Below, one piece after another: positions 15,397-28,183 of a stretch of DNA of 28,602 nucleotides. Numbering within the stretch: the first letter of the stretch is position 1; each line of letters opens with the position of its first letter. The notes beneath the pieces are model-generated. The model worked only from the letters and a program-made list of their open reading frames with translations, was not told where the DNA came from and did not search any database. The position numbers and the translations under genes were made by a program. Origin of the DNA: a virus; IMG/VR virus record IMGVR_UViG_3300042924_006111, positions 1 through 28,602 of that record; one strand, written 5' to 3'.

Positions 15397-15409
15397 TTGA
15401 CGCCAATTT

Positions 15410-15510: not shown

Positions 15511-15666
15511 AAACTGGCAGGATCGCGCCAGGATCGACGGAATGTTGGAATGGTACTGGGACCTTCCTGCGGTCCTCTGAGGCGCCTGGAGACGCTAGGA
15601 ATCGTTCGGATTTTTGAGCGCCTCTGGTGCTCGGGCTAAGGTTGGCTGAAAGGTTCTGCCTGCGGC

Positions 15667-15681
15667 TGAGAATGATTCTCA
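15667..15681. promoter_or_regulatory. Fur-box-like 7-1-7 palindrome
   Basis: TGAGAATGATTCTCA is a perfect 15-bp palindrome and differs from the 7-1-7 Fur consensus TGATAATNATTATCA at two symmetric positions. It lies in the noncoding stretch, with no clear promoter overlapping it. Function uncertain. Confidence 0.45.
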
Positions 15682-15804
15682 TCCACCCACTAGCACCGTT
15701 CCGCGACAAGTGCAGCGACGGGGCGAAGCGGTACACTACCCCTAGCGTACTCCACACCTTCAGGCACTAGGGCTGTGGCTGAGCCGGGCGGTAGCATTCT
15801 CCTT

Positions 15805-15862
15805 GTTGCACGGATACAACGGTTTTTCCCTTGTTTGCCATACCCTCTGGCCCCTGTATACT
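15805..15862 (+). promoter_or_regulatory. Cassette promoter P6 with upstream dyad
   Basis: Dyad GTTG-N8-CAAC 15805-15820, 14-bp gap, TTGCCA 15835-15840, 16-bp spacer ending CCTG, TATACT 15857-15862. Drives the genes from 15903. Confidence 0.8.
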
Positions 15863-15902
15863 TGGCAACATGTTGAGCGAAGCAACCAACGAAGGAAAAA
15901 CG

Positions 15903-16085
15903 GTGTTGATTTTCATTGAGGAACAATTCGAAGCCATGGCTCTCCTTGAGCAGGTTATTTCCAGCCTGCCTCGGCGAGATAATATCTTCGCTGGCAAGAT
16001 GTTGGAACAATACAACAGGACCGGGCACTTGTCCGATAAACAATTTTCGATTGTTTTGGAGATAATCGAAAGGAGTGGAGTCTAA
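15903..16085 (+). CDS. Small phage protein with LSxKQ motif
   Basis: 60 aa from GTG 15903, chosen because AAGGAAAA sits 3-10 bp upstream and leaves a leader of about 34 nt after P6. The ATG at 15870, in frame, coincides with the expected transcript start. Helical; FAGKMLEQYNRTGHLSDKQFSI is a pattern frequent in small phage proteins of unknown role. TAATG overlap with the next gene. Confidence 0.7.
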   Translation: MLIFIEEQFEAMALLEQVISSLPRRDNIFAGKMLEQYNRTGHLSDKQFSIVLEIIERSGV

Positions 16086-16327
16086 TGGACTTTTCAGTCT
16101 ATGCACCTCACCGGGCAGATATTCTGGCCTGGGGTAAATCACAGGCTTTGGTGTTCGAGCATATTCCGATTCAATATCTGGATGAATTCAAGGCGCGATA
16201 TAAAGGGCGGAACTATAAACTCCGCTGGCGTGGTCCTCGAAAGCATAGACTGGATCGGAGCCCTTTTCTACGCCAGTTGGATTGTACTCGGGCGGATGCT
16301 GTATGCTTTTCGGTGTATGCATACTGA
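16085..16327 (+). CDS. Conserved small phage protein
   Basis: 80 aa. The part YKLRWRGPRKHR...LDCTRADAVCFSVY follows a pattern (RxRGPR, then A-FSVY) seen in many small phage proteins; function unknown. Basic in the centre. Starts on the last base of the upstream stop codon, so coupled. Confidence 0.72.
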   Translation: MDFSVYAPHRADILAWGKSQALVFEHIPIQYLDEFKARYKGRNYKLRWRGPRKHRLDRSPFLRQLDCTRADAVCFSVYAY

Positions 16328-16340
16328 TAGGAGGGTTGGA

Positions 16341-16517
16341 ATGTATAAGGTCGGAATACAGGTGCGGTATATCGGAACTCAGGTGCAGTGTAAAGGCTCC
16401 GAATTCTGGATTGTCTCGGTGGCTGGAGATATACTAGAATTGTCCTTGGTGCCCGGTGGTGCTGGTTCATTCTACACCACCGCGGGCTATGTTGTACCGA
16501 TACAACACATTGGCTGA
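16341..16517 (+). CDS. Hypothetical small beta-rich protein
   Basis: 58 aa from ATG 16341 with GGAGGG 5 bp upstream. Strand-rich (YKVGIQVRYIGTQVQ, FWIVSVAGDILELSLV), probably a small barrel. Its 3' end codes through the P7 dyad (VVPIQH region), so the operator is inside the coding sequence. Confidence 0.7.
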   Translation: MYKVGIQVRYIGTQVQCKGSEFWIVSVAGDILELSLVPGGAGSFYTTAGYVVPIQHIG

Positions 16518-16548
16518 TGGTTGCCATTCTCGGTGGTACCTGTAAGAT
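16491..16548 (+). promoter_or_regulatory. Cassette promoter P7 with upstream dyad
   Basis: Dyad GTTGTACCGATACAAC 16491-16506, arms extended to GTTGTA/TACAAC apart from the centre; 14-bp gap; TTGCCA 16521-16526; 16-bp spacer ending CCTG; TAAGAT 16543-16548. Drives the gene at 16584. Confidence 0.8.
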
Positions 16549-16583
16549 ACCAACATTGAACGATTGATTGATTGGAAAACGGT

Positions 16584-17333
16584 ATGAAACTTCTCTCGGT
16601 GGGTAATCCTAAGGTTCTCAAAGGTATGAATCAAGGTTATATGACCTACATCCTGCACTTGGCTCCTGCTAATGTCTCGGGTTATGAAACGTGCCCGAAA
16701 CGGACTGAAGGTTGCACCTTGGCCTGCCTCAATACGGCCGGGCGTGGTGGCATGTTCCGTAAAGGCGAATCCACTAATGTGATTCAGGAAGCCCGTAAGC
16801 GTAAGACTCGGTTTTTCTTCGAGAATCGGGCTGGCTTTCTGGATACCCTGGTGGCTGATATTGAACTGGCAATTAAACAATGCGCCAAGACTGGTTTTAT
16901 TCCTGTCTTTCGTCTGAATGGCACCTCTGATATTGCATGGGAAAAGTACCCGGTGGTTCGTGGTGGTGTAATGTATGATAATGTCTTCCTGGCCTTCCCT
17001 GAGGTTACCTTTTACGATTACACCAAAATCCTCGGGCGTAAGGTGTCAGCGATCACTAACTACCACCTGACCTTTTCAGCCGCCGATGGCAATGATACCG
17101 ACGTGGTTCGTGCAATTGATGCTGGGATGAATGTGGCGGTCGTGTTCGGTGTGCCCAAGTCACAACCTCTCCCGGTGGCGTATCTGAACCGTGAGGTTTT
17201 CAACGGCGACGATTCGGACCTCCGCTTTCTTGATCCGAAAGGCGTGGTTGTCGGTTTGTACGCCAAAGGTAAAGCCAAAAAAGATACGACCGGTTTTGTC
17301 AAGTTTCCAACCCTTATGATGAAGGTGGCCTAA
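16584..17333 (+). CDS. DUF7227 / GP88-like protein
   Basis: 249 aa. The N-terminus MKLLSVGNPKVLKG...YILHLAPANVSGYETCP, the Cys cluster C37/C44/C48, and LNTAGRGGMF match the DUF7227/'gene product 88' group found in many phages. Later parts (FRLNGTSDIAWEKY, FYDYTKI, NYHLTFSAADGND) suggest an alpha/beta barrel, and the Cys cluster may bind a metal. Function unknown. First gene behind P7; GGAAAA upstream supports ATG 16584. Confidence 0.8.
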   Translation: MKLLSVGNPKVLKGMNQGYMTYILHLAPANVSGYETCPKRTEGCTLACLNTAGRGGMFRKGESTNVIQEARKRKTRFFFENRAGFLDTLVADIELAIKQCAKTGFIPVFRLNGTSDIAWEKYPVVRGGVMYDNVFLAFPEVTFYDYTKILGRKVSAITNYHLTFSAADGNDTDVVRAIDAGMNVAVVFGVPKSQPLPVAYLNREVFNGDDSDLRFLDPKGVVVGLYAKGKAKKDTTGFVKFPTLMMKVA

Positions 17334-17335
17334 TA

Positions 17336-17521
17336 ATGAATGAACGATTACAAGAATTGGCACGAGAGGCTGGATTCTATTCCAATCCAGATATAGAAAA
17401 ATTTCAAAAATTAGCCGGATTGGTTATTCAGGAATGCATCGATAATCTATTCTGGCATGGGCACGATACAGCCGCAAGCCAATTGGAATGGCTACGGGTC
17501 AACCGTTTTGGAATTAAATGA
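17336..17521 (+). CDS. FAELIVxEC-family small paralog, copy 1
   Basis: 61 aa. MNERLQELAREAGF...KFQKLAGLVIQECIDNL belongs to the same family as the genes at 24670, 25343, 26152 and 27009. This copy is shorter and ends RFGIK instead of HFGV. Helical, function unknown. It is AT-richer than its neighbours. ATGA overlap with the next gene. Confidence 0.78.
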   Translation: MNERLQELAREAGFYSNPDIEKFQKLAGLVIQECIDNLFWHGHDTAASQLEWLRVNRFGIK

Positions 17522-17736
17522 TGAATGAAGTTTATTGTATTCACAATGCTCCAAGGCAAAATGGAGATTTGTGGATTAAAGTGATTGGAGACACCGTAAA
17601 AGTTATGAATCCTGCTGGAATTTTCTGGAGAAACAAAACATTTACAATCCAAGAATTTCGTCAAATATTCAAGAAATTGAACAATGAACCAAGTAAAAGT
17701 AAAAAAGTGGTCACCAACCGATCCTCGGCACTTTGA
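17518..17736 (+). CDS. Hypothetical protein
   Basis: 72 aa, beta-rich start (CIHNAPRQNGDLWIKVIGDTVKV) and a helix TIQEFRQIFKKLNNEPSKSKK. No known domain. Its end overlaps the next gene by 53 bp, longer than elsewhere in the window. Confidence 0.6.
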   Translation: MMNEVYCIHNAPRQNGDLWIKVIGDTVKVMNPAGIFWRNKTFTIQEFRQIFKKLNNEPSKSKKVVTNRSSAL

Positions 17737-17878
17737 AGGTAAAACCATCAATGAATTGCAGGATCGGTTGGTCGATGCTGAACAATTTGCAAAGGACCAT
17801 CCTCAATTCGAATATGGTTGGCACAATGAGTACCGTCAGGAACTCAAAAGGCGAATTGCCGAAAAGATTGGAAAGTGA
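17684..17878 (+). CDS. Hypothetical small helical protein
   Basis: 64 aa, with ELQDRLVDAEQFAKDHP and NEYRQELKRRIAEKIGK. No recognised family. Overlaps the gene before it by 53 bp in another frame; the downstream part is better supported than the overlap. Ends just before the P8 dyad. Confidence 0.62.
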   Translation: MNQVKVKKWSPTDPRHFEGKTINELQDRLVDAEQFAKDHPQFEYGWHNEYRQELKRRIAEKIGK

Positions 17879-17880
17879 CC

Positions 17881-17939
17881 GTTGCAGGAAAACAACAGAA
17901 CCAATGGTTGGTTGCCATTCCCACCGGTACCTGTAGAAT
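17881..17939 (+). promoter_or_regulatory. Cassette promoter P8 with upstream dyad
   Basis: Dyad GTTGCAGGAAAACAAC 17881-17896, 15-bp gap, TTGCCA 17912-17917, 16-bp spacer ending CCTG, TAGAAT 17934-17939. The whole cassette is almost the same as P9, which has a 14-bp gap. The expected transcript start falls at the start codon of the next gene. Confidence 0.8.
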
Positions 17940-17949
17940 TGTCTCCATG

Positions 17950-18147
17950 ATGAAAACGAACGAACGATACACGGTCCAAAAAGCATATGCATCCACATTG
18001 GATGGGCGACAGTATGCAATTTGGAATGTAATTGAAACCATCAAAGGTGTGGTGCATGTTATCGACACCTTCAGCCTGCGGCGTGATGCTAAACTATACG
18101 CCGAACTTTGCAATTCGGAATCAGCCCGCAACGGATTCACCTCATGA
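17950..18147 (+). CDS. Hypothetical protein, probably leaderless
   Basis: 65 aa from ATG 17950 (or 17947). Beta strands (RYTVQKAYAS, GRQYAIWNVIETIKGVVHVID) then a helix LRRDAKLYAELCN. Both ATGs lie only 8-11 bp beyond the P8 -10, so the mRNA would have almost no leader. No later in-frame Met is available. ATGA overlap with the next gene. Confidence 0.62.
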   Translation: MKTNERYTVQKAYASTLDGRQYAIWNVIETIKGVVHVIDTFSLRRDAKLYAELCNSESARNGFTS

Positions 18148-18281
18148 ATAAACACTTTCAACCAATTGTCGTACCAGTGCCCAAACCAGTATGCCGGACA
18201 CCCATCAAGCCAGCGGTTAAGCATACGGTCCGCACCGAATACACTCGCAAACCGAAACACAAAGGAAAGGTATCAGAATGA
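18144..18281 (+). CDS. 45-aa Pro/Lys-rich basic peptide
   Basis: ATG 18144 overlaps the previous stop (ATGA) and its own TGA at 18279 overlaps the next ATG at 18278. Composition is Pro-Val-Lys-rich (VVPVPKPV..PIKPAVKH) with a basic tail RKPKHKGK. Both junctions being ATGA supports translation. Role unknown, nucleic-acid binding possible. Confidence 0.55.
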   Translation: MNKHFQPIVVPVPKPVCRTPIKPAVKHTVRTEYTRKPKHKGKVSE

Positions 18282-18505
18282 AGTCCTACATTGTCCTCTA
18301 CCGAATCGAGTCGATTATGTCTCCCGCGGATGCACCGTATGGCTTTCAATGCTGGGCGGAAGATACTGAACACGCCGAGGAACAATGCATGAATGCATAC
18401 CCGGATGGCGAGGTTGTATGGGTCGCCCTTGGCGGTGAGAATGAAGGCGATTATGATTATGCATTGTCGGATTATTGGGATATTCTAGAGGATTGCGGAA
18501 AATAA
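18278..18505 (+). CDS. Hypothetical acidic protein
   Basis: 75 aa. A strand (SYIVLYRIE) then AEDTEHAEEQCMNAYPDGEVVWVAL and an acidic end GDYDYALSDYWDILED. No known family. AAAGGAAAGG upstream; TAATG overlap with the following gene. Confidence 0.7.
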   Translation: MKSYIVLYRIESIMSPADAPYGFQCWAEDTEHAEEQCMNAYPDGEVVWVALGGENEGDYDYALSDYWDILEDCGK

Positions 18506-18693
18506 TGATACATTCTACCAACACCAAAAATCCTATCGATTTTCCAAGAAAGGAAATTCAGGTCCCTACCGAGGATGGTATCGGCTGGGCTGATATTCGA
18601 TTGATGGCTGGTGAAGGTAAACTGACACAAAAGACCATCCAACAAGCCATTGATGTTATTCGTAAACAACGGAAACAACGGAGTAAACAATGA
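18505..18693 (+). CDS. Hypothetical small protein
   Basis: 62 aa from ATG 18505. Central part EDGIGWADIRLMAGEGKLTQKTIQQAIDVI and a Lys/Arg/Gln tail RKQRKQRSKQ. Not recognised. Coupled on both sides. Confidence 0.65.
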   Translation: MIHSTNTKNPIDFPRKEIQVPTEDGIGWADIRLMAGEGKLTQKTIQQAIDVIRKQRKQRSKQ

Positions 18694-18899
18694 ACCAACG
18701 CGACCTTGAAAACCTGGAATTCCTTCGTTCCCTCACCCCCGCAGCCCTTGAAAATTGGTTCTCACAAGCCGATGATGAGGACAAGGAATATGCGGCTGAA
18801 CTTCTGGACGCATGGGAAAAGGAACTGGATGAATTGATGATGGAAGCCGCTGAGGTGATCGAAGTCAATATTCGACCCTCTGGTGTGACCCTCCACTGA
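18690..18899 (+). CDS. Hypothetical acidic helical protein
   Basis: 69 aa. Helical and acidic: LRSLTPAALENWFSQADDEDKEYAAELL, then WEKELDELMMEAAEVIEV. ATGA overlap with the previous gene; ends 2 bp before the P9 dyad. Function unknown. Confidence 0.7.
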   Translation: MNQRDLENLEFLRSLTPAALENWFSQADDEDKEYAAELLDAWEKELDELMMEAAEVIEVNIRPSGVTLH

Positions 18900-18901
18900 T
18901 T

Positions 18902-18959
18902 GTTGCAGGAAAACAACAGAACCATGGATGGTTGCCATCCTCACCGGCACCTGTAGAAT
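18902..18959 (+). promoter_or_regulatory. Cassette promoter P9 with upstream dyad
   Basis: Dyad GTTGCAGGAAAACAAC 18902-18917, 14-bp gap, TTGCCA 18932-18937, 16-bp spacer ending CCTG, TAGAAT 18954-18959. Close copy of P8. Drives 18991-20140. Confidence 0.8.
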
Positions 18960-18990
18960 TGCACTCATGTTGAACGATAAAGGTAACACA

Positions 18991-19179
18991 ATGTCTCCGA
19001 TGCAATTTCTCAAAGCCGCGCAAGATTATGCGGAGTCAATTGGTGATGAATATTGGTTCGCCCAATATTACACCAAATTCCGTGAGAATCATGGTGTAGG
19101 TGAATCTGCCGAATACACCATTATTCTCCTGTATGGTACCGATTGCCCCCTTCTGATGAATCTAAAGGAAACCGCATGA
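18991..19179 (+). CDS. Hypothetical protein
   Basis: 62 aa from ATG 18991, which has AAAGG 7 bp upstream; an in-frame ATG at 18967 coincides with the P9 transcript start. MSPMQFLKAAQDYAESIGDEYWF.. then a strand YTIILLYGTDCPLL. Not recognised. The next gene begins at 19176 (ATGA). Confidence 0.68.
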   Translation: MSPMQFLKAAQDYAESIGDEYWFAQYYTKFRENHGVGESAEYTIILLYGTDCPLLMNLKETA

Positions 19180-19448
19180 AACCCGTGAAAACCATCAAAT
19201 TCAAATTCTATACCGATCCTGGGCATGGCTGGCTCGCCGTGAAGCGTGTACTGGTCAACCAGTATATGGTCGGTGATGAGGTCACCTGTTATTCTTATAT
19301 GAACGGTAAGACAGTCTATCTGGAAGAGGACTACGATGCACCCCGATTCCTAGAGAAAATCAAAGCCGCTGGCTTTATCGTTGAAATCGAACACAAAAAT
19401 TCCGCCACAAAAGACTCGCCGATCCGTCGGTATGATTCCTTTCAATAA
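19176..19448 (+). CDS. Conserved TDPGHGWLAV-type protein
   Basis: 90 aa. TDPGHGWLAVKRVLV, then CYSYMNGKTVYLEEDYDAPRFLEKIKAAG, matches a small protein widespread in proteobacterial phages and islands. Function unknown. Coupled to the previous gene by ATGA; 8 bp before the hydrolase gene. Confidence 0.78.
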   Translation: MKPVKTIKFKFYTDPGHGWLAVKRVLVNQYMVGDEVTCYSYMNGKTVYLEEDYDAPRFLEKIKAAGFIVEIEHKNSATKDSPIRRYDSFQ

Positions 19449-19456
19449 ACAAAAAA

Positions 19457-20140
19457 ATGTCTACTGCCTGGCTTTTTCGAACTGGAATTTTACTTGCGGC
19501 TCCGGCTATACTCTATTGGCAATATACGGATGTAAAAAAGGTTTTTTCAGAATTGGAACGGGTACATGAGGACCAACAAAGGCTCTATGATAATCAAGTC
19601 CAAATTGTAAAACAACAGGCGCAAATCGTTAATGAATTAAAAGAGATTCAGGCGCCAAAGGCACCGCGCATTGAAACACCAATTTCAGTGCCGGCGCCAT
19701 CTGTGCAGCCCTTGAAACCCCTTTCAATTGTAAAAACAAACCAAAAGGTTCCCTATAATTCCAATGACCTGTTCTGTATGGCAAAAAATATCTACCATGA
19801 GGCGGCGCATGAGCCTATCATTGGTAGGTACGCCGTCGCGCAGGTAACACTAAACAGAAAAACCGATCCAAAATATCCAAAACGTATTTGTGAAGTGATA
19901 TTGGATCCATTCCAATTCAGTTGGGCAAACGATAAGAAAATCCATTGGGTACAACCAAAAGGTCCCGCATGGGAAGAATCCAAACGTATTGCCCATGATG
20001 TTATCATCAATGGTTATCGGGTGCAGGGGCTTGAAAAGGGGCTTTTCTATCATGCCGATTATGTAAGCCCTAAATGGCGTGACAATAATGCCAAGATAAC
20101 CCAAATTGGTCGCCACATATTCTACAGCAAGGCTCTATAA
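19457..20140 (+). CDS. SleB-type cell-wall hydrolase, membrane-anchored
   Basis: 227 aa. A hydrophobic segment at about 8-22 looks like a signal anchor, then a Gln/Glu-rich coiled coil (28-65), a Pro-rich linker (67-90), and a Hydrolase_2/SleB domain: MAKNIYHEAAHEP with the catalytic Glu at E115, VTLNRKTDPKYPKRICEVI, QFSW, FYHADYVSPKW, and QIGRHIFY. It probably cleaves peptidoglycan and may be an endolysin exported by its anchor (SAR-like). No holin or spanin gene lies beside it. Ends just before the P10 dyad. Confidence 0.87.
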   Translation: MSTAWLFRTGILLAAPAILYWQYTDVKKVFSELERVHEDQQRLYDNQVQIVKQQAQIVNELKEIQAPKAPRIETPISVPAPSVQPLKPLSIVKTNQKVPYNSNDLFCMAKNIYHEAAHEPIIGRYAVAQVTLNRKTDPKYPKRICEVILDPFQFSWANDKKIHWVQPKGPAWEESKRIAHDVIINGYRVQGLEKGLFYHADYVSPKWRDNNAKITQIGRHIFYSKAL

Positions 20141-20141
20141 T

Positions 20142-20199
20142 GTTGCATAAAAACAACACAACGAAAGATGGTTGCCACAACCGCCAGGACCTGTAAACT
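20142..20199 (+). promoter_or_regulatory. Cassette promoter P10 with upstream dyad
   Basis: Dyad GTTGCATAAAAACAAC 20142-20157, 14-bp gap, TTGCCA 20172-20177, 16-bp spacer ending CCTG, TAAACT 20194-20199. Drives the AAA+ ATPase operon 20232-21637. Confidence 0.8.
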
Positions 20200-20231
20200 C
20201 TCATTCATCGACAACACTTCTGGAGTTTCAT

Positions 20232-21059
20232 ATGCCCCGTGGCGTACCCAAAGCAGGTTTCCGTAAGACCAAAGCCGCAATTGCCCGTAAGACCGATGCC
20301 CTTATGACCAAGGCTGTAGAATCGCGGTTCTCGATCAATGAGCGGTTCGGCTTCGTATCCGATATGATCGCCATGTTAGCCTCAGGCGATCAAGCCTCCG
20401 TGGTCGTGACAGGCCCTGGCGGGCTTGGCAAGTCCTTTACCGTCACCCAAGCCCTTACCGATGCTGGTATGGTCGACGTTTCACTCCTTGATGAATTCGA
20501 CATTGGCGACAAGATCAACACCAACACCTCTTTCCGTGTCATCAAGGGTTACTCTACACCCAAGGGCTTGTACCGTACACTCTACGAAAACAAGGATGGC
20601 GTGGTGGTTTTTGATGATTGTGATTCCGTACTCAAGGATCCCGTATCGTTGAACCTGCTCAAAGGTGCATTGGACTCCTATGCTCGCCGTGTTATCTCAT
20701 GGCGTGCAGACCTTCGTGATGAGGACCTGCCTCAGGCTTTCGAGTTTAAAGGGCGCGTGGTCTTTATCTCAAACCTGCCCTCCGATGCTATGGATCAAGC
20801 CATTATCACCCGTTCAATGGCGGTTGACCTGTCAATGAATGAAACCCAGAAAATTGAGCGGATGCGTTATCTGCTCAGCCAAAAAGATTTCATGCCTGAA
20901 TACAGTAAACAACACAAGGATGATGCCCTCAACCTTATCGATATGTTAAAGGACAAGGTAAAAGAATTGTCCCTTCGGACTCTGATTCAGGTCACCAAAA
21001 TCCGCAAATCGGCTGGTGCTAAATGGAAAGACCTCGCGGAATACACCATCTGCGGTTGA
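20232..21059 (+). CDS. AAA+ P-loop ATPase
   Basis: 275 aa. Walker A GPGGLGKS (61-68), Walker B VVVFDDCD (124-131), a sensor-1 Asn in FISN181, and R194 as possible arginine finger. N-terminal residues 1-20 (MPRGVPKAGFRKTK) are basic and recall the GVPKxG motif of H-NS-type DNA-binding tails, so DNA contact is possible. ATP hydrolysis is a safe inference; the process is not. Some phage ATPases of this size act with a VWA protein, and one is encoded at 9754, but they are 10 kb apart. GGAG 7 bp upstream sets ATG 20232. Confidence 0.85.
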   Translation: MPRGVPKAGFRKTKAAIARKTDALMTKAVESRFSINERFGFVSDMIAMLASGDQASVVVTGPGGLGKSFTVTQALTDAGMVDVSLLDEFDIGDKINTNTSFRVIKGYSTPKGLYRTLYENKDGVVVFDDCDSVLKDPVSLNLLKGALDSYARRVISWRADLRDEDLPQAFEFKGRVVFISNLPSDAMDQAIITRSMAVDLSMNETQKIERMRYLLSQKDFMPEYSKQHKDDALNLIDMLKDKVKELSLRTLIQVTKIRKSAGAKWKDLAEYTICG

Positions 21060-21104
21060 TACATAGTAGACAATCTATGGACCTCTTTCTTGAAAGGATC
21101 AACC

Positions 21105-21365
21105 ATGACCAATCCTGAAATTCAGAACCACCTGTATCAATGGGCATGCGCCAAGGGCTTTGATGCACCTTATGGCGTACTGACCGGGTCCGCAACCAGT
21201 CGGAACGGGCGTAGGCATTTTACTGTTACCTTTGGGCGCGCAAGGACTTTGGACGCAACGGTTGAAGTCTATGGTCCAACCTTCCTGCGCCTCCGCACCT
21301 CCAGCCATGGAAATGAGATATTCCGCGACCTACCTAGCCTCATGGCTAGATTGGAGACCCTATGA
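21105..21365 (+). CDS. Hypothetical protein
   Basis: 86 aa from ATG 21105 with AAAGGA upstream. N-terminal helix then strands (RRHFTVTFGRARTLDATVEVYGPTFLRL). Not recognised. ATGA overlap with the next gene, 45 bp after the ATPase. Confidence 0.7.
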   Translation: MTNPEIQNHLYQWACAKGFDAPYGVLTGSATSRNGRRHFTVTFGRARTLDATVEVYGPTFLRLRTSSHGNEIFRDLPSLMARLETL

Positions 21366-21637
21366 AGATTGTAATTAACCAATGCCACGGCGGCTTCGGG
21401 CTCTCCGATGAAGCCATGGAGCGTTATGTCAAGGAGTCTGGTACCACACCAGCTGGGAATTGGGACATTGCCAGGGACGATCCTACACTGGTCAGGATCG
21501 TGGAGGAGATGGGTTCCAATGCTTTCACCCGGTTCTCCGACCTCAAGGTGGTGGAAGTGCCGGACGGTGTGAGGTGGTTCATACAGGAGTATGATGGGAT
21601 GGAATGGGTAGCAGAGGCCCATCGGACATGGCGATAG
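21362..21637 (+). CDS. Conserved MKIVIN-type phage protein
   Basis: 91 aa. MKIVINQCHGGFGLSDEAMERY, then DPTLVRIVEEMGSNA and VVEVPDGVRWFIQEYDGMEWVAE, is a well-spread phage/prophage family without known function. Last gene of the P10 operon; a 10-bp stem-loop follows. Confidence 0.8.
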   Translation: MKIVINQCHGGFGLSDEAMERYVKESGTTPAGNWDIARDDPTLVRIVEEMGSNAFTRFSDLKVVEVPDGVRWFIQEYDGMEWVAEAHRTWR

Positions 21638-21667
21638 GACCACCTCCAGGGCGCTCCAGGGGAGCAG

Positions 21668-21696
21668 GGAAGGTCCTAGCATGGGCAGGACCTTCC
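21668..21696. terminator. Strong stem-loop, possible terminator
   Basis: GGAAGGTCCT (21668-21677) and AGGACCTTCC (21687-21696) pair perfectly around a 9-nt loop, 31 bp after the last gene of the P10 operon. There is no T-tract, so it may be a terminator that needs help or an RNA 3'-end stabiliser. No ORF fits between 21638 and 21864. Confidence 0.5.
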
Positions 21697-21732
21697 AGCG
21701 CCTCCTGGGCGGTCCTGGCACTTCGCCATTCC

Positions 21733-21786
21733 GTTGTATCGGTACAACACTGTCGCGTTGGAACAACACTGTTGCGCCCATACAAC
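21733..21786. promoter_or_regulatory. Three tandem dyads at 19-bp period
   Basis: GTTG-N8-CAAC at 21733-21748, GTCG-N8-CAAC at 21752-21767, GTTG-N8-CAAC at 21771-21786. The starts are exactly 19 bp apart. The last dyad ends 14 bp before the P11 -35. Confidence 0.8.
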
Positions 21787-21800
21787 ACTCCATGATCCTG

Positions 21801-21828
21801 TTGCCATTCCTACCGGTACCTGTAAACT
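21801..21828 (+). promoter_or_regulatory. Cassette promoter P11
   Basis: TTGCCA 21801-21806, 16-bp spacer ending CCTG, TAAACT 21823-21828, behind a triple dyad. Likely drives 21865 onward. No further cassette appears downstream, so this may be the start of a long transcript into the AT-rich block. Confidence 0.8.
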
Positions 21829-21864
21829 TCTCTTTATCGATTGAGACAACACAAGGAAGAAACG

Positions 21865-22218
21865 ATGGAAATTCTTGACACCCGCGACCTTCAAGACCGC
21901 ATGGATGAAATTGAGATGGACCTGGAGACTTTGGAGATGGATGAGGCTGAGCGTGAAGCCCTCCGCGAGGAATTGACCGCCCTCCAGACCCTACAGGAAG
22001 AGGTCGAAGGGTACTCCTCAGACGATTGGAGAAATGGCGTCCAATTGATTCCTGAAGAGGTTTTCACGGAATACTGCCAGGAACTCTTGGAAGACTGCGG
22101 AGACATTCCCCGCAACCTGCCCTCTTATATTGTAATTGACTGGGAGGAGACGGCCTCCAACCTGCGGGTAGACTACACCGAGGTCGATTATGAGGGTACC
22201 ACGTACCTGTTCCGTTGA
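21865..22218 (+). CDS. Conserved phage protein, coiled-coil plus beta domain
   Basis: 117 aa. N-terminal coiled coil (residues 8-50, acidic) followed by LIPEEVFTEYCQELLEDCGDIPRNLPSYIVIDWEETASNLRVDYTEVDYEGTTYLFR in three parts; this C-terminal pattern (IDWE.TA.NL..DY..V...G.TY..R) recurs in many phages and mobile elements. Function unknown. AAGGAAG upstream of ATG 21865. Confidence 0.8.
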   Translation: MEILDTRDLQDRMDEIEMDLETLEMDEAEREALREELTALQTLQEEVEGYSSDDWRNGVQLIPEEVFTEYCQELLEDCGDIPRNLPSYIVIDWEETASNLRVDYTEVDYEGTTYLFR

Positions 22219-22248
22219 ACGTAAGACAACATAAGACAAGGAGAAACC

Positions 22249-22509
22249 ATGGACTTATTCGTTGAAGTTGAAAAGATGCTGGAATTGGATTGCGATTATG
22301 AGGAAATTATCGCATTCATCCAGGCGGCTCGCCCAGGTTATAATCTAGCAGATTGTGATGAGGTGATTATGGACTGCGAGATGAAATTGGCCGTGCGTTA
22401 TAAAGACATGGAAGACTATGAGGATATGGACGGTGACCATGCATCGGCTTTGGCATCGGCTGGGTGGGGTACCGATGAGGACTATGGCTATGCATCCGAT
22501 GATTATTAA
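22249..22509 (+). CDS. Hypothetical acidic protein
   Basis: 86 aa, very acidic at the C-terminus (EDYEDMDGDHASALASAGWGTDEDY). Helical N-terminal half with two Cys. AAGGAGA upstream. Not recognised. Confidence 0.7.
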   Translation: MDLFVEVEKMLELDCDYEEIIAFIQAARPGYNLADCDEVIMDCEMKLAVRYKDMEDYEDMDGDHASALASAGWGTDEDYGYASDDY

Positions 22510-22532
22510 ATTTTTGCTCCCGGTGGCTTATT

Positions 22533-22664
22533 ATGTCGAATATGTATCCTTTGGTCTATTTTTTATCCTTCTTCGTGCTTTGTCACCTGGCCAATAAACA
22601 TTCAGGTGCGGCCGGTGTAAGTGGGGTTGTAATTGCATGGTTTATTTTTGGTTTTTTTCTGTGA
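22533..22664 (+). CDS. 43-aa two-helix membrane peptide
   Basis: ATG 22533 with GGTGG 6 bp upstream. Two hydrophobic stretches (about 6-19 YFLSFFVLCHLA and 31-43 GVVIAWFIFGFFL) separated by a short loop with Lys-His. Lies between two sure genes. Could be a holin-like or inhibitory peptide; undetermined. Confidence 0.55.
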   Translation: MSNMYPLVYFLSFFVLCHLANKHSGAAGVSGVVIAWFIFGFFL

Positions 22665-22672
22665 GGTGGTAA

Positions 22673-23056
22673 ATGGGTACTCGCGCATTGATTAAAGTTC
22701 TCGATGAGTCTAACTCGGTGGTGACCTGCCTCTATTCACAATGGGATGGTTATCCGTCTGGTATTGGTTCTGCCCTGGCGGCCTTTTTGAGTCAAATTAA
22801 ACTAATTAATGGTATAACTGGCAAAGAAACTCGCCCGGTGGCCAATGGCATGGGTTGCCTTGCGGCTCAATTAGTTGTACACTTTAAGAAGGAAGTTGGT
22901 TCATACTATCTGGTTGATCCAAAAGTTGAACATGGCGAAGAATATATCTATGAGGTATATTCAAATAAAGTAAGAGTAACCAATTATGCTAAAGAAGTTC
23001 TTTACCTTGGTTCGTGGGATCTTTTCTCCGAATTCTGCAACGGTTCTGATGATTAA
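22673..23056 (+). CDS. Conserved MGTRALIKV-type phage protein
   Basis: 127 aa. MGTRALIKVLDE...YSQWDGYPSGIGSALAAFL is a pattern recurring in phage proteins of unknown role; a beta-rich C-terminus (YEVYSNKVRVTNYAK) follows. GAGGTGG upstream. First clearly AT-rich gene after the GC-rich block. Confidence 0.8.
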   Translation: MGTRALIKVLDESNSVVTCLYSQWDGYPSGIGSALAAFLSQIKLINGITGKETRPVANGMGCLAAQLVVHFKKEVGSYYLVDPKVEHGEEYIYEVYSNKVRVTNYAKEVLYLGSWDLFSEFCNGSDD

Positions 23057-23159
23057 ACCTATTTCATATCGCCGTTATTATTGGAAAGAATTTCGCCGCC
23101 ATGCGAAAGTATTGGTTCGTGATATTCGTGGTATTATCCTAAATCGGAGAATAAAATGA
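23049..23159 (+). CDS. 36-aa basic peptide
   Basis: ATG 23049 overlaps the previous gene by 8 bp and its TGA overlaps the next ATG (ATGA at 23156). Rich in Arg, Lys, Tyr (YRRYYWKEFRRH, RDIRGIILNRR). Possibly a nucleic-acid-binding or membrane-surface peptide. The tight junctions support it. Confidence 0.5.
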   Translation: MIKPISYRRYYWKEFRRHAKVLVRDIRGIILNRRIK

Positions 23160-23605
23160 CGGTTGATGATTTGTTTAAAAAGTACCCATTGATTTTTCAA
23201 GTACGCAAAGGGCGAGAATTAGAACCTTTTTGCATGTTCGGTATTGAATGTGGTAGTGGTTGGTTTCCCCTTCTGGATGCACTCTGCTATCAGATTCAAT
23301 CTTATATTGATTATCGTAAAGAATCTAACGAACGAATCGAAGAAAACAAGAAAAAATATCCAGACTACAACCAAACACCTTTTGCATTGATTCCTCAAGT
23401 TACCGTAACACAAGTAAAAGAAAAGTATGGTACGCTGCGATTCTATTATGATGGTGGTGATGAAACAATCGATGGCATGGTCCGCATGGCTGAAGCGATG
23501 AGTTCAATTACTTGTGAAGTATGCGGCAATCTAGGGAAAATGCGCGGGCGTTCTTGGCTCTATACTGCTTGCGATGAACACACTAAAGAAGAGGATAAAA
23601 AATGA
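23156..23605 (+). CDS. Conserved phage protein with zinc knuckle
   Basis: 149 aa. Body with GWFPLLDALCYQIQSYI and VTQVKEKYGTLRFYYDGGDE, then TCEVCG..G..RGRSW..TAC..H, a CxxC...CxxxH layout likely to bind zinc. This two-part layout recurs in many phages. Function unknown. ATGA overlap with the next gene. Confidence 0.8.
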   Translation: MTVDDLFKKYPLIFQVRKGRELEPFCMFGIECGSGWFPLLDALCYQIQSYIDYRKESNERIEENKKKYPDYNQTPFALIPQVTVTQVKEKYGTLRFYYDGGDETIDGMVRMAEAMSSITCEVCGNLGKMRGRSWLYTACDEHTKEEDKK

Positions 23606-23901
23606 AAACTGATGAAATTGCACAACTGGTATCTATTATTGAAAAATGTAATCAAGCTGATGTGAGGAAAATTCTTGTTGACTATCTTGCATCTCAATTG
23701 TATAATAAAGGTATGATCCCGGTGGTTAAACCTTTGACGATTGATGACCTTAATCCTTCTTGGAGCAATAAATGCCCTGTATGCCATCTAATTGGTGCAC
23801 AGGGCTATGTCTGTAGCAGGAATGATTGCCCCTGTAAGATCACTTCTTCAGCCACCAACTATCAGCAAAAAGTCCGTACTAGTGGTGTCGACACATATTA
23901 A
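23602..23901 (+). CDS. Hypothetical protein with Cys cluster
   Basis: 99 aa. N-terminal helices (LVSIIEKCNQADVRKILVDYLASQL), then CPVC (about 58-61) and C..C.C (CSRNDCPC), a possible zinc site. Not recognised. Confidence 0.75.
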   Translation: MKTDEIAQLVSIIEKCNQADVRKILVDYLASQLYNKGMIPVVKPLTIDDLNPSWSNKCPVCHLIGAQGYVCSRNDCPCKITSSATNYQQKVRTSGVDTY

Positions 23902-23914
23902 AAGAAAGTAAGAA

Positions 23915-24304
23915 ATGGGAACTAATTACTACGTTGCTTCCAATCTTTGTGAATGCTGCGACCGATATGATGAAGAATACCATATTGGTAAGTCATCAGG
24001 CGGTTGGGCATTTTCTTTCCATGGATATCGTGCTGAACGGCTGGTAAGCTGGGCTGCATGGAAAGAATTCTTGAAAGATAAAATCATCATGGACGAATAC
24101 GGAGAACGTAAAGACTATGATTGGTTCGTTCAATATATTGAAGGACCAAAAGCCCCCAGTTATACAAATACTCATGGGCATAAAAATCTTCAACATAATG
24201 ATGAAGGGCGAAAACCTGACAAGTTTGGACATGCATGGTTTAATCCTGAATACGATTGGGATGATCCTGAAGGATACGCTTTCTGTGCAAGAGAGTTTTC
24301 ATGA
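23915..24304 (+). CDS. Conserved MGTNYY phage protein
   Basis: 129 aa. MGTNYYVASNLCECCDRYDEEYHIGKSSGGWAFSFHGY in two parts is a very recognisable phage/bacterial family start, with CxxCC and His as likely metal ligands. The rest holds NTHGHKNL and WFNPEYDWDDPEGYAFC. Function unknown. ATGA overlap with the next gene. Confidence 0.85.
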   Translation: MGTNYYVASNLCECCDRYDEEYHIGKSSGGWAFSFHGYRAERLVSWAAWKEFLKDKIIMDEYGERKDYDWFVQYIEGPKAPSYTNTHGHKNLQHNDEGRKPDKFGHAWFNPEYDWDDPEGYAFCAREFS

Positions 24305-24504
24305 ATGAAGATGAACTAATCTATAGTGCATGGCGTGACTCTGAAGCATATCAAGTACCTATGACAGAAGAAGGTATGAGACTTGCAGGAATTAGATTCA
24401 ATACTTTTCGAAAAGGCTGGGAATATCATAAGTTCTACCTAGAACATGGTGATGTTTTTATGAAAGATTATCTTGAACATGGACCGAGGTGTGAAGATGA
24501 ATGA
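24301..24504 (+). CDS. Hypothetical small protein
   Basis: 67 aa. Contains AGIRFNTFRKGWEYHKFYLE and an acidic end. The FRKGWE segment is seen in several small phage proteins. No function known. Coupled both sides. Confidence 0.7.
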   Translation: MNEDELIYSAWRDSEAYQVPMTEEGMRLAGIRFNTFRKGWEYHKFYLEHGDVFMKDYLEHGPRCEDE

Positions 24505-24673
24505 TAATTGGTGGGTCTTTCCCGTAGCAGGTTTAACACTTGCGGCTATTATTTTACTAATTGTTGTTGGTGGCAAGTTGGAAACGTCGCGTATTTACAA
24601 CAACTGTCTTGACAAGAATGGCACATTGGTGTATACTGATGCTGTTAAACATTGCAAAGAGATTGTAAAGTGA
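24497..24673 (+). CDS. Small membrane-anchored protein with two Cys
   Basis: 58 aa from ATG 24497. One hydrophobic segment (about 7-26, FPVAGLTLAAIILLIVVGG) then a polar C-terminal part with C37 and C53, which could form a disulfide outside the inner membrane. Overlaps the previous gene by 8 bp and the next by 4. Confidence 0.7.
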   Translation: MNDNWWVFPVAGLTLAAIILLIVVGGKLETSRIYNNCLDKNGTLVYTDAVKHCKEIVK

Positions 24674-24879
24674 ACGAACGAATCCGAGAACTTGCTGAAG
24701 AATCCTATAATGAGTTCTACAACATTCATATTGATTTAGAATTGTTTGTCGAGTTGATTGTTATGGAATGTATTGATAATATTAGGAGAGTTGGTATCTT
24801 GGAAGATATCGAAAACGAAACTGATATGGTTGTCAATGCTGTAAAAGAACATTTTGGAGTTAAATGTGAATATCGTTAG
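24670..24879 (+). CDS. FAELIVxEC-family small paralog, copy 2
   Basis: 69 aa, GTG start overlapping the upstream stop (GTGA). Starts VNERIRELAEE, centre LFVELIVMECIDNI, end VKEHFGVKCEYR. The GGAG within the FGV codons is placed 6 bp before the next GTG start. Function unknown. Confidence 0.78.
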   Translation: MNERIRELAEESYNEFYNIHIDLELFVELIVMECIDNIRRVGILEDIENETDMVVNAVKEHFGVKCEYR

Positions 24880-25075
24880 ACCAAAAATACTATACTATGT
24901 ACTATTGTACAAACCGAGAACTTTTCCCGACGGTGGTTGGTCTAACTTTATTGCTACCCCACATCTCGGTAAAGCACGATACTATGCTAAGAAACTAAAA
25001 CGACAACACCGTCAAATTGATGTACGGGTTCGTGGTAAGCGTAAAGCTTATGTTCTAAAAGGAAGTTGGCTATGA
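24866..25075 (+). CDS. Hypothetical basic protein
   Basis: 69 aa, GTG start at 24866, set by GGAG at 24856-24859 inside the upstream gene. Very basic (KKLKRQHRQIDVRVRGKRKAYVLKG), with an aromatic N-terminus. Could bind nucleic acid. Overlaps the upstream gene by 14 bp. Confidence 0.68.
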   Translation: MNIVRPKILYYVLLYKPRTFPDGGWSNFIATPHLGKARYYAKKLKRQHRQIDVRVRGKRKAYVLKGSWL

Positions 25076-25350
25076 ACTTCATCAAGTGCCATAAATGTGG
25101 GCGTGAAGAACCTGCATTTGACTATGCACATATATGTGGTCCGGTAGAGATAAAACAAACTAACAAACGAATTGAACTAACAAGGCCCGACGGAACATCA
25201 TACCTAACACTTAGAAAAGATAGTCGGCTTGCCTACATTCAAATTCATGATTATGATTACTTCGGTGATCCTGTAGAGTTTAATTTTGATGTGAGAGCAA
25301 TTCCTATGTTGATTGATGGGCTAATTCAACTGGGAGATACAAATGAATAA
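25072..25350 (+). CDS. Hypothetical protein with N-terminal CxxC
   Basis: 92 aa from ATG 25072 (ATGA). C7xxC10 and a later C22 with H20 make a possible half zinc site; the rest is strand-rich (TSYLTLRKDSRLAYIQIHDYD). Not recognised. Overlaps the next gene by 8 bp. Confidence 0.7.
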   Translation: MNFIKCHKCGREEPAFDYAHICGPVEIKQTNKRIELTRPDGTSYLTLRKDSRLAYIQIHDYDYFGDPVEFNFDVRAIPMLIDGLIQLGDTNE

Positions 25351-25576
25351 ACGAATTGAAGAACTAGCACAATGCAATGAACGCATTCTAAATTTCTTTC
25401 AAACTGGTCCCGTTCAACGTGCAGCCATTGAAGAATTTGCCGAGTTAATTATACAGGAATGTATTGGTATTGTAGAAAACCTAAGCCCAGGATACGCCGA
25501 TTATCGTAACCAAATCGAAGATGCCTTTCGTAGAGACTGTGTTGAAAAAGTCAAAGAACATTTTGGAGTTGAATAA
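25343..25576 (+). CDS. FAELIVxEC-family small paralog, copy 3
   Basis: 77 aa. MNKRIEELAQCNERI, then EEFAELIIQECIGIV and VEKVKEHFGVE. The same FGV-coded GGAG lies 8 bp before the next ATG. Helical, function unknown. Confidence 0.8.
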   Translation: MNKRIEELAQCNERILNFFQTGPVQRAAIEEFAELIIQECIGIVENLSPGYADYRNQIEDAFRRDCVEKVKEHFGVE

Positions 25577-26025
25577 TGAGTGAAATTATTGATGATACGA
25601 TTACAAGAAATCGAGAATGGAAAAAATCAAAACAAGAAAAATTAAATCGGCTAAAACGACTTAATGCCCCCGTCGAATTGATTCAAGAAGCCGAAAAAAT
25701 AGCCAATATGGACTATTTTGAATATCAAAAATATATTCAACAAATGGAAGAAAATGATAAAATCATCAAAGCTGAATATGCCAAAAATAATCCTTTGAAA
25801 AAAGAAATTGTAGATAAAATCTATGACAAAGTAAATAAATTGGAATATGATTTTTACACATACACTTCAAATATTCATTTTCTACAAAAGTTGGATCCTC
25901 TTTCGTTTATGTCAAATGAAGATTATGAACATGATTTGTATCTCACATTCATCAATCATGCTCACGAGTTATATTGCCAAAAGTATGAAGAACAACAAAG
26001 AAATGCGGAGTTGAATAATGGATGA
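25576..26025 (+). CDS. Hypothetical charged helical protein
   Basis: 149 aa, Lys/Glu-rich helices (REWKKSKQEKLNRLKRL, YDKVNKLEYDFYTY) typical of a coiled-coil bundle. No domain recognised. Starts on the last base of the upstream stop and overlaps the next small gene by 8 bp. Confidence 0.72.
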   Translation: MSEIIDDTITRNREWKKSKQEKLNRLKRLNAPVELIQEAEKIANMDYFEYQKYIQQMEENDKIIKAEYAKNNPLKKEIVDKIYDKVNKLEYDFYTYTSNIHFLQKLDPLSFMSNEDYEHDLYLTFINHAHELYCQKYEEQQRNAELNNG

Positions 26026-26155
26026 CACTATTTGGTTTTTTGTTGGTTGGATCGTAGGCATTCTCCTTGGCTATGTCGTGTGGGCACCTGAAACACGATT
26101 CAAGCAGAATTTTATTGATGGATTGACACTGCGATTTCTTTGGGGAAAGCGATGA
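26018..26155 (+). CDS. 45-aa membrane peptide
   Basis: ATG 26018 with GGAG upstream. One hydrophobic segment (IWFFVGWIVGILLGYVVW, about 5-22) then a short basic tail with RFLWGKR. ATGA overlap with the next gene. Small membrane protein of unknown role. Confidence 0.6.
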   Translation: MDDTIWFFVGWIVGILLGYVVWAPETRFKQNFIDGLTLRFLWGKR

Positions 26156-26400
26156 ACAAACGAATGAGAGAACTTGAAAAACAATGTTGGGACTATCAAA
26201 CCAATCATTTGAATACTGATAAGTTCGCTGAGTTGATTGTTCAGGAATGTGCTAGTGTATTGAGAGCAGAATCCGAAAGACTCTATAAACTATCAGCAGA
26301 AGAAAAAGACGAACTGTTTGCCAGTAATTTTGAAATCTGTGCTGAGAAATGTTGGGATAATGAAGTGATGATTAAAGAACATTTTGGAGTTAAAGAATGA
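26152..26400 (+). CDS. FAELIVxEC-family small paralog, copy 4
   Basis: 82 aa from ATG 26152. MNKRMRELEKQ, then DKFAELIVQECASVL, a longer middle helix region, end IKEHFGVKE. GGAG of the FGV codons is 8-9 bp before the next ATG. Confidence 0.8.
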   Translation: MNKRMRELEKQCWDYQTNHLNTDKFAELIVQECASVLRAESERLYKLSAEEKDELFASNFEICAEKCWDNEVMIKEHFGVKE

Positions 26401-26783
26401 GCCAAGTAGTAAGAGCAATTGAAGCACACGATACGGGTGACCGAAAACTTATCAAAGAAAGTTTCTCTACACTGTTCCAAGATGTATTCAACATCAAGTC
26501 ACATATTCAAGATGTAAGAGGAACTGAAGGTATTGCTAAACAATATCGAATCAGTGTCACAATTGGTTCTCAAGTACATGTAAGTGATCTTGATCTTCTC
26601 CAAGAAGGCGGTGACACACTAGAGGAAGCAATTCACCGTACCAAGCGCCAAGTGATTGAAGCCATCTATGGTGAGTTTCGACAAGACCTGATGATGGTTG
26701 AACGTGCATTGTATGATCGGGATTTTCAAAAAGCACGAGATTGCCTGAGGATTCTAGAACAGAAGATGTTTGGGATTGAATGA
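26397..26783 (+). CDS. Hypothetical protein
   Basis: 128 aa. Mixed alpha/beta start (KQYRISVTIGSQVHVSDLD) and a helical C-terminal half (TLEEAIHRTKRQVIEAIYGEFR). Not recognised, soluble. ATGA coupled. Confidence 0.72.
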   Translation: MSQVVRAIEAHDTGDRKLIKESFSTLFQDVFNIKSHIQDVRGTEGIAKQYRISVTIGSQVHVSDLDLLQEGGDTLEEAIHRTKRQVIEAIYGEFRQDLMMVERALYDRDFQKARDCLRILEQKMFGIE

Positions 26784-26785
26784 TA

Positions 26786-26905
26786 ATGCCTTGGTATAAA
26801 AAACTGTTGTATATTCTTATAGCACCGTTTATTATCGGTGCTTGGTGTATTGTGAATCCCCGTAAAGTGTGGGAGCAGGCTAAGAAAGATTTCGGAGTAG
26901 AATGA
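26786..26905 (+). CDS. 39-aa membrane peptide ending FGVE
   Basis: ATG 26786. Short basic N-terminus (MPWYKK), one hydrophobic stretch LLYILIAPFIIGAWCIV, then WEQAKKDFGVE, which repeats the C-terminal motif and GGAG ribosome site of the paralog family. This looks like a fusion of a membrane piece with that family's end. Confidence 0.6.
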   Translation: MPWYKKLLYILIAPFIIGAWCIVNPRKVWEQAKKDFGVE

Positions 26906-27012
26906 TGAAATTTATTACCTCACTTATATCATGGATCATCATGCCCATTGCCATAGTTGTAGTCGCATATGATATAGCCAAATGCTTTGTAGAGAGTAAG
27001 ATCCTTAAATGA
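26905..27012 (+). CDS. 35-aa membrane peptide
   Basis: ATG 26905 (or 26902, overlapping the upstream stop) with CGGAG 7 bp upstream. Hydrophobic core SLISWIIMPIAIVVVAYDIA, then polar tail. ATGA overlap with the next gene. Confidence 0.55.
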   Translation: MKFITSLISWIIMPIAIVVVAYDIAKCFVESKILK

Positions 27013-27266
27013 ACGAACTGATTCAAAAATTTGCGGAACAAGCAGACCTCTTTGCTGATTCCAAACTTCAAATGAAGGGTGAATATCATCCTGATTGGCA
27101 CGACATTCGTGATGAAAAGTTTGCCATGTTGATTGTGCAAGAATGCATTGAGCAAGCTCATTGTGTGGCTGATTCGCGTGGTGTAAATGATGATATGATT
27201 TATGGCGCTGATACTGCTGCTGCGAGAATTGCTAAACATTTTGGAGTAAATAATGAAACTAAGTGA
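27009..27266 (+). CDS. FAELIVxEC-family small paralog, copy 5
   Basis: 85 aa. MNELIQKFAEQADLF, then DEKFAMLIVQECIEQA and IAKHFGVNNETK. Longest copy, with an inserted segment around residues 16-40. GGAG of the FGV codons lies before the next start at 27253. Confidence 0.8.
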   Translation: MNELIQKFAEQADLFADSKLQMKGEYHPDWHDIRDEKFAMLIVQECIEQAHCVADSRGVNDDMIYGADTAAARIAKHFGVNNETK

Positions 27267-27582
27267 ACTGCATCGATTGGTGAATGCCCATCACAATGAA
27301 GAACGTATGATGCGTGAAGATCCAGAAGTTGTAATTCAAATTAAACTTCCATATTCCACTGTAGGTGCTCATCCTACAGTTAAGATCAAACACATTGTTA
27401 TGGGATTTGACTGGGACGCAGGTAAGTTCATTATCACACCAGAAGAAAACCTAACACCTGCTGACCGTGACTTTGCTCAACAGATGCGAAAGATGCAGGA
27501 TGATTTGGGTTGGGTGAAGAACGAGAACTATAAACTCAAAGCAGAAATTAAAAAACTGAAGAAACAACTTGGCACACCATAA
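27253..27582 (+). CDS. Hypothetical phage protein
   Basis: 109 aa. Strand-rich N-terminal part (VVIQIKLPYSTVGAHPTVKIKHI, FDWDAGKFIITPEENL) and a C-terminal coiled coil (NENYKLKAEIKKLKKQL). Overlaps copy 5 by 14 bp. Unknown function. Confidence 0.75.
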   Translation: MKLSELHRLVNAHHNEERMMREDPEVVIQIKLPYSTVGAHPTVKIKHIVMGFDWDAGKFIITPEENLTPADRDFAQQMRKMQDDLGWVKNENYKLKAEIKKLKKQLGTP

Positions 27583-27956
27583 TGAAATCATATAAAGAAG
27601 AAGTAGTCGATCAAGCAATTCTTGGTTTAGTTCAAGGTGGTTATCCAGAAGCAGATTCACTTCGTATGTTGCTTGAACGAATTTATGAGTGTGGTTATAA
27701 CGAACATTCGAGGCAACTAACTGAATCTATTGTTAGAGAACATCCTATCTTCATTGTTGCAGGAACACATGAACAGTTTAGAACATATCATCGAGAAAAA
27801 AGGATGGATCGTAGGTTTCAATATGTATCAGGACCAGAAGTGTTAAGAGGTTATAGTAATCCACAGGTAGAATTTGTTGGCACTTGGCTAGATCGTTCAG
27901 ATATTCAAGAAATCATTACACAAGTAAAAGTATCTGCATGGGGAAGAAAAGAATGA
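27582..27956 (+). CDS. Hypothetical alpha/beta protein
   Basis: 124 aa. N-terminal helix, then alternating strands and helices (HPIFIVAGTHEQFRTYHRE, FQYVSGPEVLRGY, VEFVGTWLDRSDIQEII), which suggests a Rossmann-like fold. I have seen similar layouts in other phage proteins without function. TAATG start, ATGA end. Confidence 0.72.
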   Translation: MKSYKEEVVDQAILGLVQGGYPEADSLRMLLERIYECGYNEHSRQLTESIVREHPIFIVAGTHEQFRTYHREKRMDRRFQYVSGPEVLRGYSNPQVEFVGTWLDRSDIQEIITQVKVSAWGRKE

Positions 27957-28183
27957 GATACTACTGTTACAACGAATATGATCCAGATTCTCCACTAGCC
28001 GATGAAACTGGTGGTTATGTTGTAACTAAATCGGAGGCTGAGATTCGTAGTGAATATTGGCCTCATTGGTATAAGCGAATGTGCGATAAATTCGGTAAGT
28101 TTGAAGTGGATCGCAGATATTCTTTTGAAGATTGCCTCGACGATTGGATCGTCGTAAACTGGGCGTGGCGGGTGAAAGAATGA
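27953..28183 (+). CDS. Hypothetical Trp/Tyr-rich protein
   Basis: 76 aa from ATG 27953. Rich in aromatic residues (YWPHWYKRMCDKF, DWIVVNWAWR), no known motif. Coupled on both sides. Confidence 0.7.
   Translation: MRYYCYNEYDPDSPLADETGGYVVTKSEAEIRSEYWPHWYKRMCDKFGKFEVDRRYSFEDCLDDWIVVNWAWRVKE

Follow-up and report, generated by a model that had tools for sequence, protein, structure and literature searches.

A promoter family with upstream dyads

The DNA analysed here (the window) is a 28.6-kb IMG/VR contig, a fragment with T4-like genes for ribonucleotide reductase, a T4 RNase H-like exonuclease, a cyanophage-type peptidase and PstS, and no near relative of it was found among phage records. The PstS-like phosphate-binding protein is encoded at 3709-4833, adjoining the ribonucleotide reductase genes; such a gene is an auxiliary metabolic gene familiar from cyanophages.

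The window carries 11 promoters of one family, TTGCCA-N12-CCTGTANNNT, each with a GTTG-N8-CAAC dyad upstream, that of P1 with one mismatch (Table 1). The pattern TTGCCA-N12-CCTGTA-NNN-T gave 11 exact matches in 13514-21828, each of them on the plus strand, and its reversed control gave zero. All 11 promoters are of the sigma-70 type, TTGCCA-16-TANNNT, with 9-10 of 12 consensus matches. Using a first-order Markov model, 0.34 exact dyads would be expected in 13001-28602, where 15 were observed. Moreover, the spacing between GTTG and CAAC is specific, as N8 occurs in 16 copies and the other spacers from N4 to N12 in 0-3. The symmetrised consensus of 196 non-redundant dyads is TGTTGYWTN-NAWRCAACA, in which the search imposed GTTG and the Y but left the flanking T, the inner W and the inner T free. 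The original prediction described a standard gap of 14 bp between dyad and -35; this holds for nine of the 11 promoters, but not for P8 (15 bp) or P2 (2 bp).

Further dyads were found outside this set. A potential twelfth promoter (dyad at 24586, TTGACA-17-TATACT at 24609) has one mismatch, lies inside a reading frame and was rejected; the dyad at 6320 also sits within a reading frame. The dyads at 15410-15425 and 15495-15510, 85 bp apart, are mutual reverse complements in 15 of 16 bases, and no family promoter follows either. In another contig (L072:134-230), a single dyad lies between two divergent family promoters, with gaps of 21 and 12, and might be one site serving both.

Table 1. Features of the window and copies of the 38-nt element elsewhere. 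Dyad centres at P11 were computed with the transcription start assumed 6-7 nt past the -10.
Feature	Coordinates	Strand	Remarks
P1	13484..13541	+	dyad (GTCG variant), gap 14, promoter
P2	13899..13944	+	dyad, gap 2, promoter
P3	14673..14730	+	dyad, gap 14, promoter of short conserved RNA-like element
P4	14788..14845	+	dyad, gap 14, promoter
P5	15295..15352	+	dyad, gap 14, promoter of second short conserved RNA-like element
P6	15805..15862	+	dyad, gap 14, promoter
P7	16491..16548	+	dyad, gap 14, promoter of GP88 gene
P8	17881..17939	+	dyad, gap 15, promoter
P9	18902..18959	+	dyad, gap 14, promoter
P10	20142..20199	+	dyad, gap 14, promoter of phrog_1250 ATPase gene
P11 distal dyad GTTGTATCGGTACAAC	21733..21748	.	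centre ~ -94.5
P11 middle dyad GTCGCGTTGGAACAAC	21752..21767	.	one mismatch (GTCG variant); centre ~ -75.5
P11 proximal dyad GTTGCGCCCATACAAC	21771..21786	.	centre ~ -56.5
P11 core promoter TTGCCA-N16-TAAACT	21801..21828	+	CCTG ahead of -10
First gene after P11	21865..22218	+	117-aa ArdA-like protein; phrog_25535, Pfam ArdA
38-nt element	14737-14774 and 15359-15396		behind P3 and P5
38-nt element, further copies	L049:8540 and 9881; L055 13649 and 12830; L207-L211	L055: minus	
MNxRxxEL paralogs	17336-17521, 24671-24879, 25343-25576, 26152-26400, 27009-27266		

The triple dyad upstream of P11

At P11, three dyads start at 21733, 21752 and 21771, so the exact 19-bp period that had been predicted was confirmed (start-to-start distances of 19 and 19), with one mismatch in the middle dyad. 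Each dyad is followed by ACT, and the array reads GTTGTATCGGTACAAC-act-GTCGCGTTGGAACAAC-act-GTTGCGCCCATACAAC, 14 bp, TTGCCA-N16-TAAACT. The proximal dyad ends 14 bp before the -35 TTGCCA at 21801, and the -10 TAAACT occupies 21823-21828. P11 had been suggested as possibly the strongest promoter, but this -10 is weaker than that of P1, P2, P4 and P6 (TATACT). No triple of this type arose in 200 sequences simulated with a first-order Markov model.

The spacing had been described as near two helical turns, which is a loose approximation: at 10.5 bp per turn, 19 bp corresponds to 1.81 turns, and by the same arithmetic neighbouring dyads are ~70 degrees apart and the outer pair ~137 degrees apart. 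The three sites therefore do not lie on one face of the DNA.

The individual units have counterparts at other promoters. Read on the opposite strand, the distal dyad is identical to the P7 dyad at 16491. The GTCG mismatch of the middle dyad is also found in the P1 dyad at 13484, and the proximal dyad has the same sequence as the P4 dyad (14788) and, on the opposite strand, as the more distal of the two dyads at the P11 ortholog of a diverged relative, G001. Since the P11 units match the P7, P4 and G001 dyads, dyads appear to have been copied between promoters, in either orientation.

The first gene after P11 encodes an ArdA-like protein that matches phrog_25535 (E=3.5e-20) and, below the curated cut-off, Pfam ArdA (E=1.3e-4). 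The expectation that P11 may serve a long downstream region is supported, as it is the last family promoter in the window and the next dyad promoter, located in a close relative, is that of the winged-helix gene described below.

Dyad arrays in related phages

The triple with its 19-bp period is kept in three close relatives. These are ~97% identical to the window around P11, so this conservation says little on constraint and was discounted as support for the triple. In two diverged relatives, G001 and G005, the ArdA-like orthologs are 75% and 54% identical, respectively; the P11 ortholog of G001 has two dyads (period 18, gap 14) and that of G005 a single one (gap 13). In G002, three dyads with a 24-bp period, the most distal with one mismatch, precede the GP88 gene, whose window ortholog has one dyad. 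Other dyad pairs are spaced 16 and 22 bp. Thus, with three, two or one dyads at P11 orthologs and periods of 16-24 bp elsewhere, arrays recur and neither their number of sites nor their period is conserved; the exact triple with its 19-base arrangement is, as far as the compared sequences tell, peculiar to the window lineage. No dyad excess was observed in XacN1, RAS14, DLP6 and DC31, the named relatives checked.

Position of the dyads relative to the core promoter

We examined the placement of dyads in a first set of 88 non-redundant promoters, chosen partly by the dyad pattern. Exact dyads, which are missing from 20 of these promoters, cluster at gaps of 2-7, 12-18 and 23-29, and none overlaps or follows the core. 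Because this set was partly dyad-selected, an independent set was made of contigs found solely via the winged-helix gene, from which the contigs used earlier were removed. Of its 50 non-redundant dyads, 29 are no more than 40 bp from a family promoter, and all 29 lie upstream of the -35, with none overlapping the -35, spacer, -10 or start. Their gaps are 5-7 (13 dyads), 10 (1), 15-18 (14) and 28 (1), the two main classes being one helical turn apart. When coordinates were shifted by 700-1500 bp as a control, 0-1 promoter-associated dyads were left.

In the pooled 98 promoters, the 10.5-bp bias (R=0.36) is weaker than in the independent set, yet beyond the smooth null, as none of 20,000 draws reached this R. 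A periodicity test restricted to distinct gap values was not significant. Lineages differ in their preferred gaps: the window group favours 2 and 14, the others 7 and 16-17, and the window group is 3-5 bp out of phase.

Class I activation calls for a site that is upstream only and helically biased, while simple repressors usually overlap the core. The promoter-associated dyads are upstream of the -35, helically phased and never overlap the core, and from their positions they behave like activator sites. The earlier proposal that they are sites of a regulatory protein is supported by their tie to promoters and their helical bias.

A winged-helix protein as candidate regulator

To find a candidate regulator, we compared open reading frames across 13 contigs, together with a list of small conserved proteins. 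Among 36 of the 39 proteins listed, judged by eye, a single one, of ~110 amino acids, has an evident helix-turn-helix. AlphaFold2 predicted a winged-helix core with confidence; pLDDT is close to 90 or higher in most blocks, and the elements follow the order H11-21, H27-33, H42-56, E60-65, E68-74, that is, the H-H-H-beta-beta winged-helix fold. A structural second look matched mostly winged helices (BirA, ToxR, MarR, PadR), with Z at most 8.0, and we therefore take these matches as a fold assignment only. The family counts 364 relatives in IMG/VR; searches of 50,697 phage records and of 84,980 genomes of bacteria and archaea found none.

In G001, G005, G010 and G016, the winged-helix gene starts 77-85 bp after a dyad, which precedes a TTGCCN-17-TATAAT-like promoter; overall, a dyad was present in the 220 bp upstream of the gene at only 10 of 80 winged-helix loci. 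A relative of the window, contig 3300034116_001269 (L170), is collinear with it and ~95% identical over 19894-24304. It carries the winged-helix gene on the same strand, ~2.8 kb past the point matching the end of the window, preceded by the dyad GTTGCTTTATGGCAAC, a gap of 15 and TTGCCA-17-TATAAT. This is the sole dyad in the 6.3 kb examined. Moreover, dyads exceed control matches in 12 of 12 long winged-helix carriers (85 versus 16 in all), and no excess was seen in ten named phages (12 dyads versus 15 control matches). This co-occurrence may result from shared ancestry, the carriers forming one clade.

It should be noted that neither MotA (PF09158) nor AsiA (PF09010) was found in the eight long winged-helix carriers tested, whose contigs are maybe incomplete, whereas both were found in 3 of 3 T4-like controls. 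Given this possible incompleteness, the carriers are likely, rather than proven, to be without MotA and AsiA. T4-like phages RB49, RB43 and Aeh1 were reported in 2006 to be without detectable MotA or a middle promoter consensus, with no substitute for MotA on record, and the partner of AsiA in Aeh1 and KVP40 was not known at that time (PMC1524935). MotA boxes of T4 lie at -30 and take the place of the -35 (PMC2988021). The promoters described here are arranged differently, with the TTGCCA -35 present and the dyad upstream of it.

A model for dyad function and its alternatives

Taken together, these observations suggest that the dyads serve as docking sites for a small phage DNA-binding protein not described before, through which a large uncultured group of T4-like phages turns on its early genes. 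We infer binding, activation, contact with RNA polymerase and a role for the extra sites as follows. A winged-helix dimer would bind each dyad, upstream of the -35, and would touch the host sigma-70 RNA polymerase, presumably at the alpha C-terminal domain, in class I fashion. Initiation would thereby rise at a number of early or middle promoters, that of the activator gene among them. With three sites rather than one, P11 would have higher occupancy upstream of a weak core promoter driving the anti-restriction-like gene and a gene run of ~10 kb. The extra sites may compensate for the weak -10 at this last gene run before the regulator's own promoter. In this form, with the dyads as operators of a phage-encoded, class I-like activator, most likely the ~110-aa winged-helix protein, and the P11 triple acting through dosage, we give the model an even chance of being correct. 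Somewhat more tentatively, an uncultured T4-like clade lacking MotA and AsiA could have replaced them with a phage-only winged helix acting on TGTTG-N8-CAACA upstream of intact sigma-70 promoters, the number of sites serving as an evolvable dosage knob.

Part of the evidence bears on the number of sites at P11. According to the original prediction, three sites at a fixed 19-bp period bind cooperatively on one face and make P11 the most strongly controlled promoter. The period is indeed exactly 19 twice and is retained in the three close relatives, but these are nearly identical at P11, the diverged orthologs show either two sites with a period of 18 bp or a single site, periods of 16, 22 or 24 bp occur in other arrays, and 1.81 turns rotate the sites away from each other. 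A fixed cooperative geometry on one face was not supported beyond the window lineage, and we consider this explanation very unlikely; since dyad number and period change, simple dosage fits better than a rigid cooperative array. A rather stronger competitor, though still somewhat unlikely in our judgement, is that the proximal dyad alone works and the two distal ones are near-neutral leftovers of recombination between short palindromes. The dyad sequences shared, in one orientation or the other, between unit 1 and P7 and between unit 3, P4 and the distal site of G001 agree with it, as does the copy number of 3, 2 and 1 at P11; against this, arrays recur in separate lineages, as in the 24-bp triple at the G002 GP88 gene, suggesting some benefit.

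Other alternatives concern what binds the dyads. The same phage protein could be a repressor that binds later in infection and shuts the early promoters, the triple giving a tighter shut-off. Repressor systems often feature dyad arrays and winged-helix genes under autoregulation, and with near-consensus -35 elements help is perhaps unneeded; yet no dyad of either set occupies the -35, spacer, -10 or start, the usual positions of simple repressors, and a helical placement bias is typical of activators, which makes repression unlikely. Slightly less probable still is a host activator of the CRP/FNR superfamily. FNR sites have the geometry TTG-N8-CAA and the consensus TTGAT-N4-ATCAA, and CRP sites are GTG-N8-CAC; the half-site spacing of the dyads equals that of FNR-type sites, and the preferred gaps would place their centres near -51, -61 and -72. 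However, GTTG is followed by T, C or G and never by A in 226 half-sites, unlike in TTGAT, so that we rejected FNR-type sites, and the dyads track a phage gene absent from the bacterial and archaeal genomes searched. Finally, RNA hairpins or terminators of the upstream transcript are highly improbable: the dyad of 21733 folds into a 6-bp hairpin, but stems are weak, with many dyads retaining just the four outer pairs, no T-run follows the dyads, and the folding energy of the array is only mildly below that of shuffles (z about -2).

Comparison with known systems

The activator model shares features with several known systems. As in CRP/FNR class I promoters, a two-fold site lies upstream of the -35 with distance preferences about one helical turn apart, but the dyads are without TTGAT or TGTGA and the winged-helix candidate is too short for a CRP-like sensor domain. 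P2 Ogr and P4 Delta are small zinc-binding late activators recognising TGT-N12-ACA. They resemble the candidate in being phage activators that serve a sigma-70 promoter from an upstream dyad, with its centre near -55, whereas a winged-helix candidate and a GTTG-N8-CAAC dyad set the present system apart. In the T4 MotA/AsiA system, a phage protein likewise guides the sigma-70 RNA polymerase of the host to a group of phage promoters, a role for which we have a candidate here, whereas the MotA box is centred at -30 and replaces the -35 (PMC2988021, PMC1524935); in addition, both families are missing from the eight carriers. The early promoters of T4 are also many and strong, of the sigma-70 type and one per small early gene cluster, with A-rich UP elements for the alpha subunit instead of palindromes (PMC2988021, PMC1524935). 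With -35 and -10 elements of the quality seen here, promoters of the present family may function unaided by an activator.

A new activator/operator system in MotA-less T4-like phages is, on these sequence comparisons, probable rather than established. If a winged helix has replaced MotA/AsiA, it would represent another way of achieving early/middle control in such phages. MotA replacement becomes testable in another MotA/AsiA-less group, one with a recognisable site and a candidate regulator. The dyad-plus-promoter signature marks early genes of unknown function, including the anti-restriction-like one, and is a possible finder of host-takeover genes in uncultured phages.

Other elements of the early region

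A 38-nt element, CATAGCACTGG-N5-CGAGGCTCTAATCC and then a stretch of lower conservation that ends in TGC, begins a few bases past the -10, at the expected transcription start. Apart from its 5 variable bases it is near-invariant, and each phage of the window group has two copies. It also occurs, again behind promoters, in five contigs where dyads are few or absent. Rfam gave nothing meaningful for the element, for which no covariation was seen, and an Rfam search of the window returned no match. The element resembles a very short small RNA of the phage.

The early region of the window also encodes several paralogs of a small-protein family that starts with MNxRxxEL and has a LIVQEC-like motif. 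In G002, a conserved early protein (L052:1113-1685), with a homolog in G010, matches Pfam Tad3, a type I Thoeris inhibitor (E=1.1e-39). No tRNA genes were found in the window; G002 has one cluster of 32 tRNA genes (L053:1996-9954), covering a near-full amino acid set.
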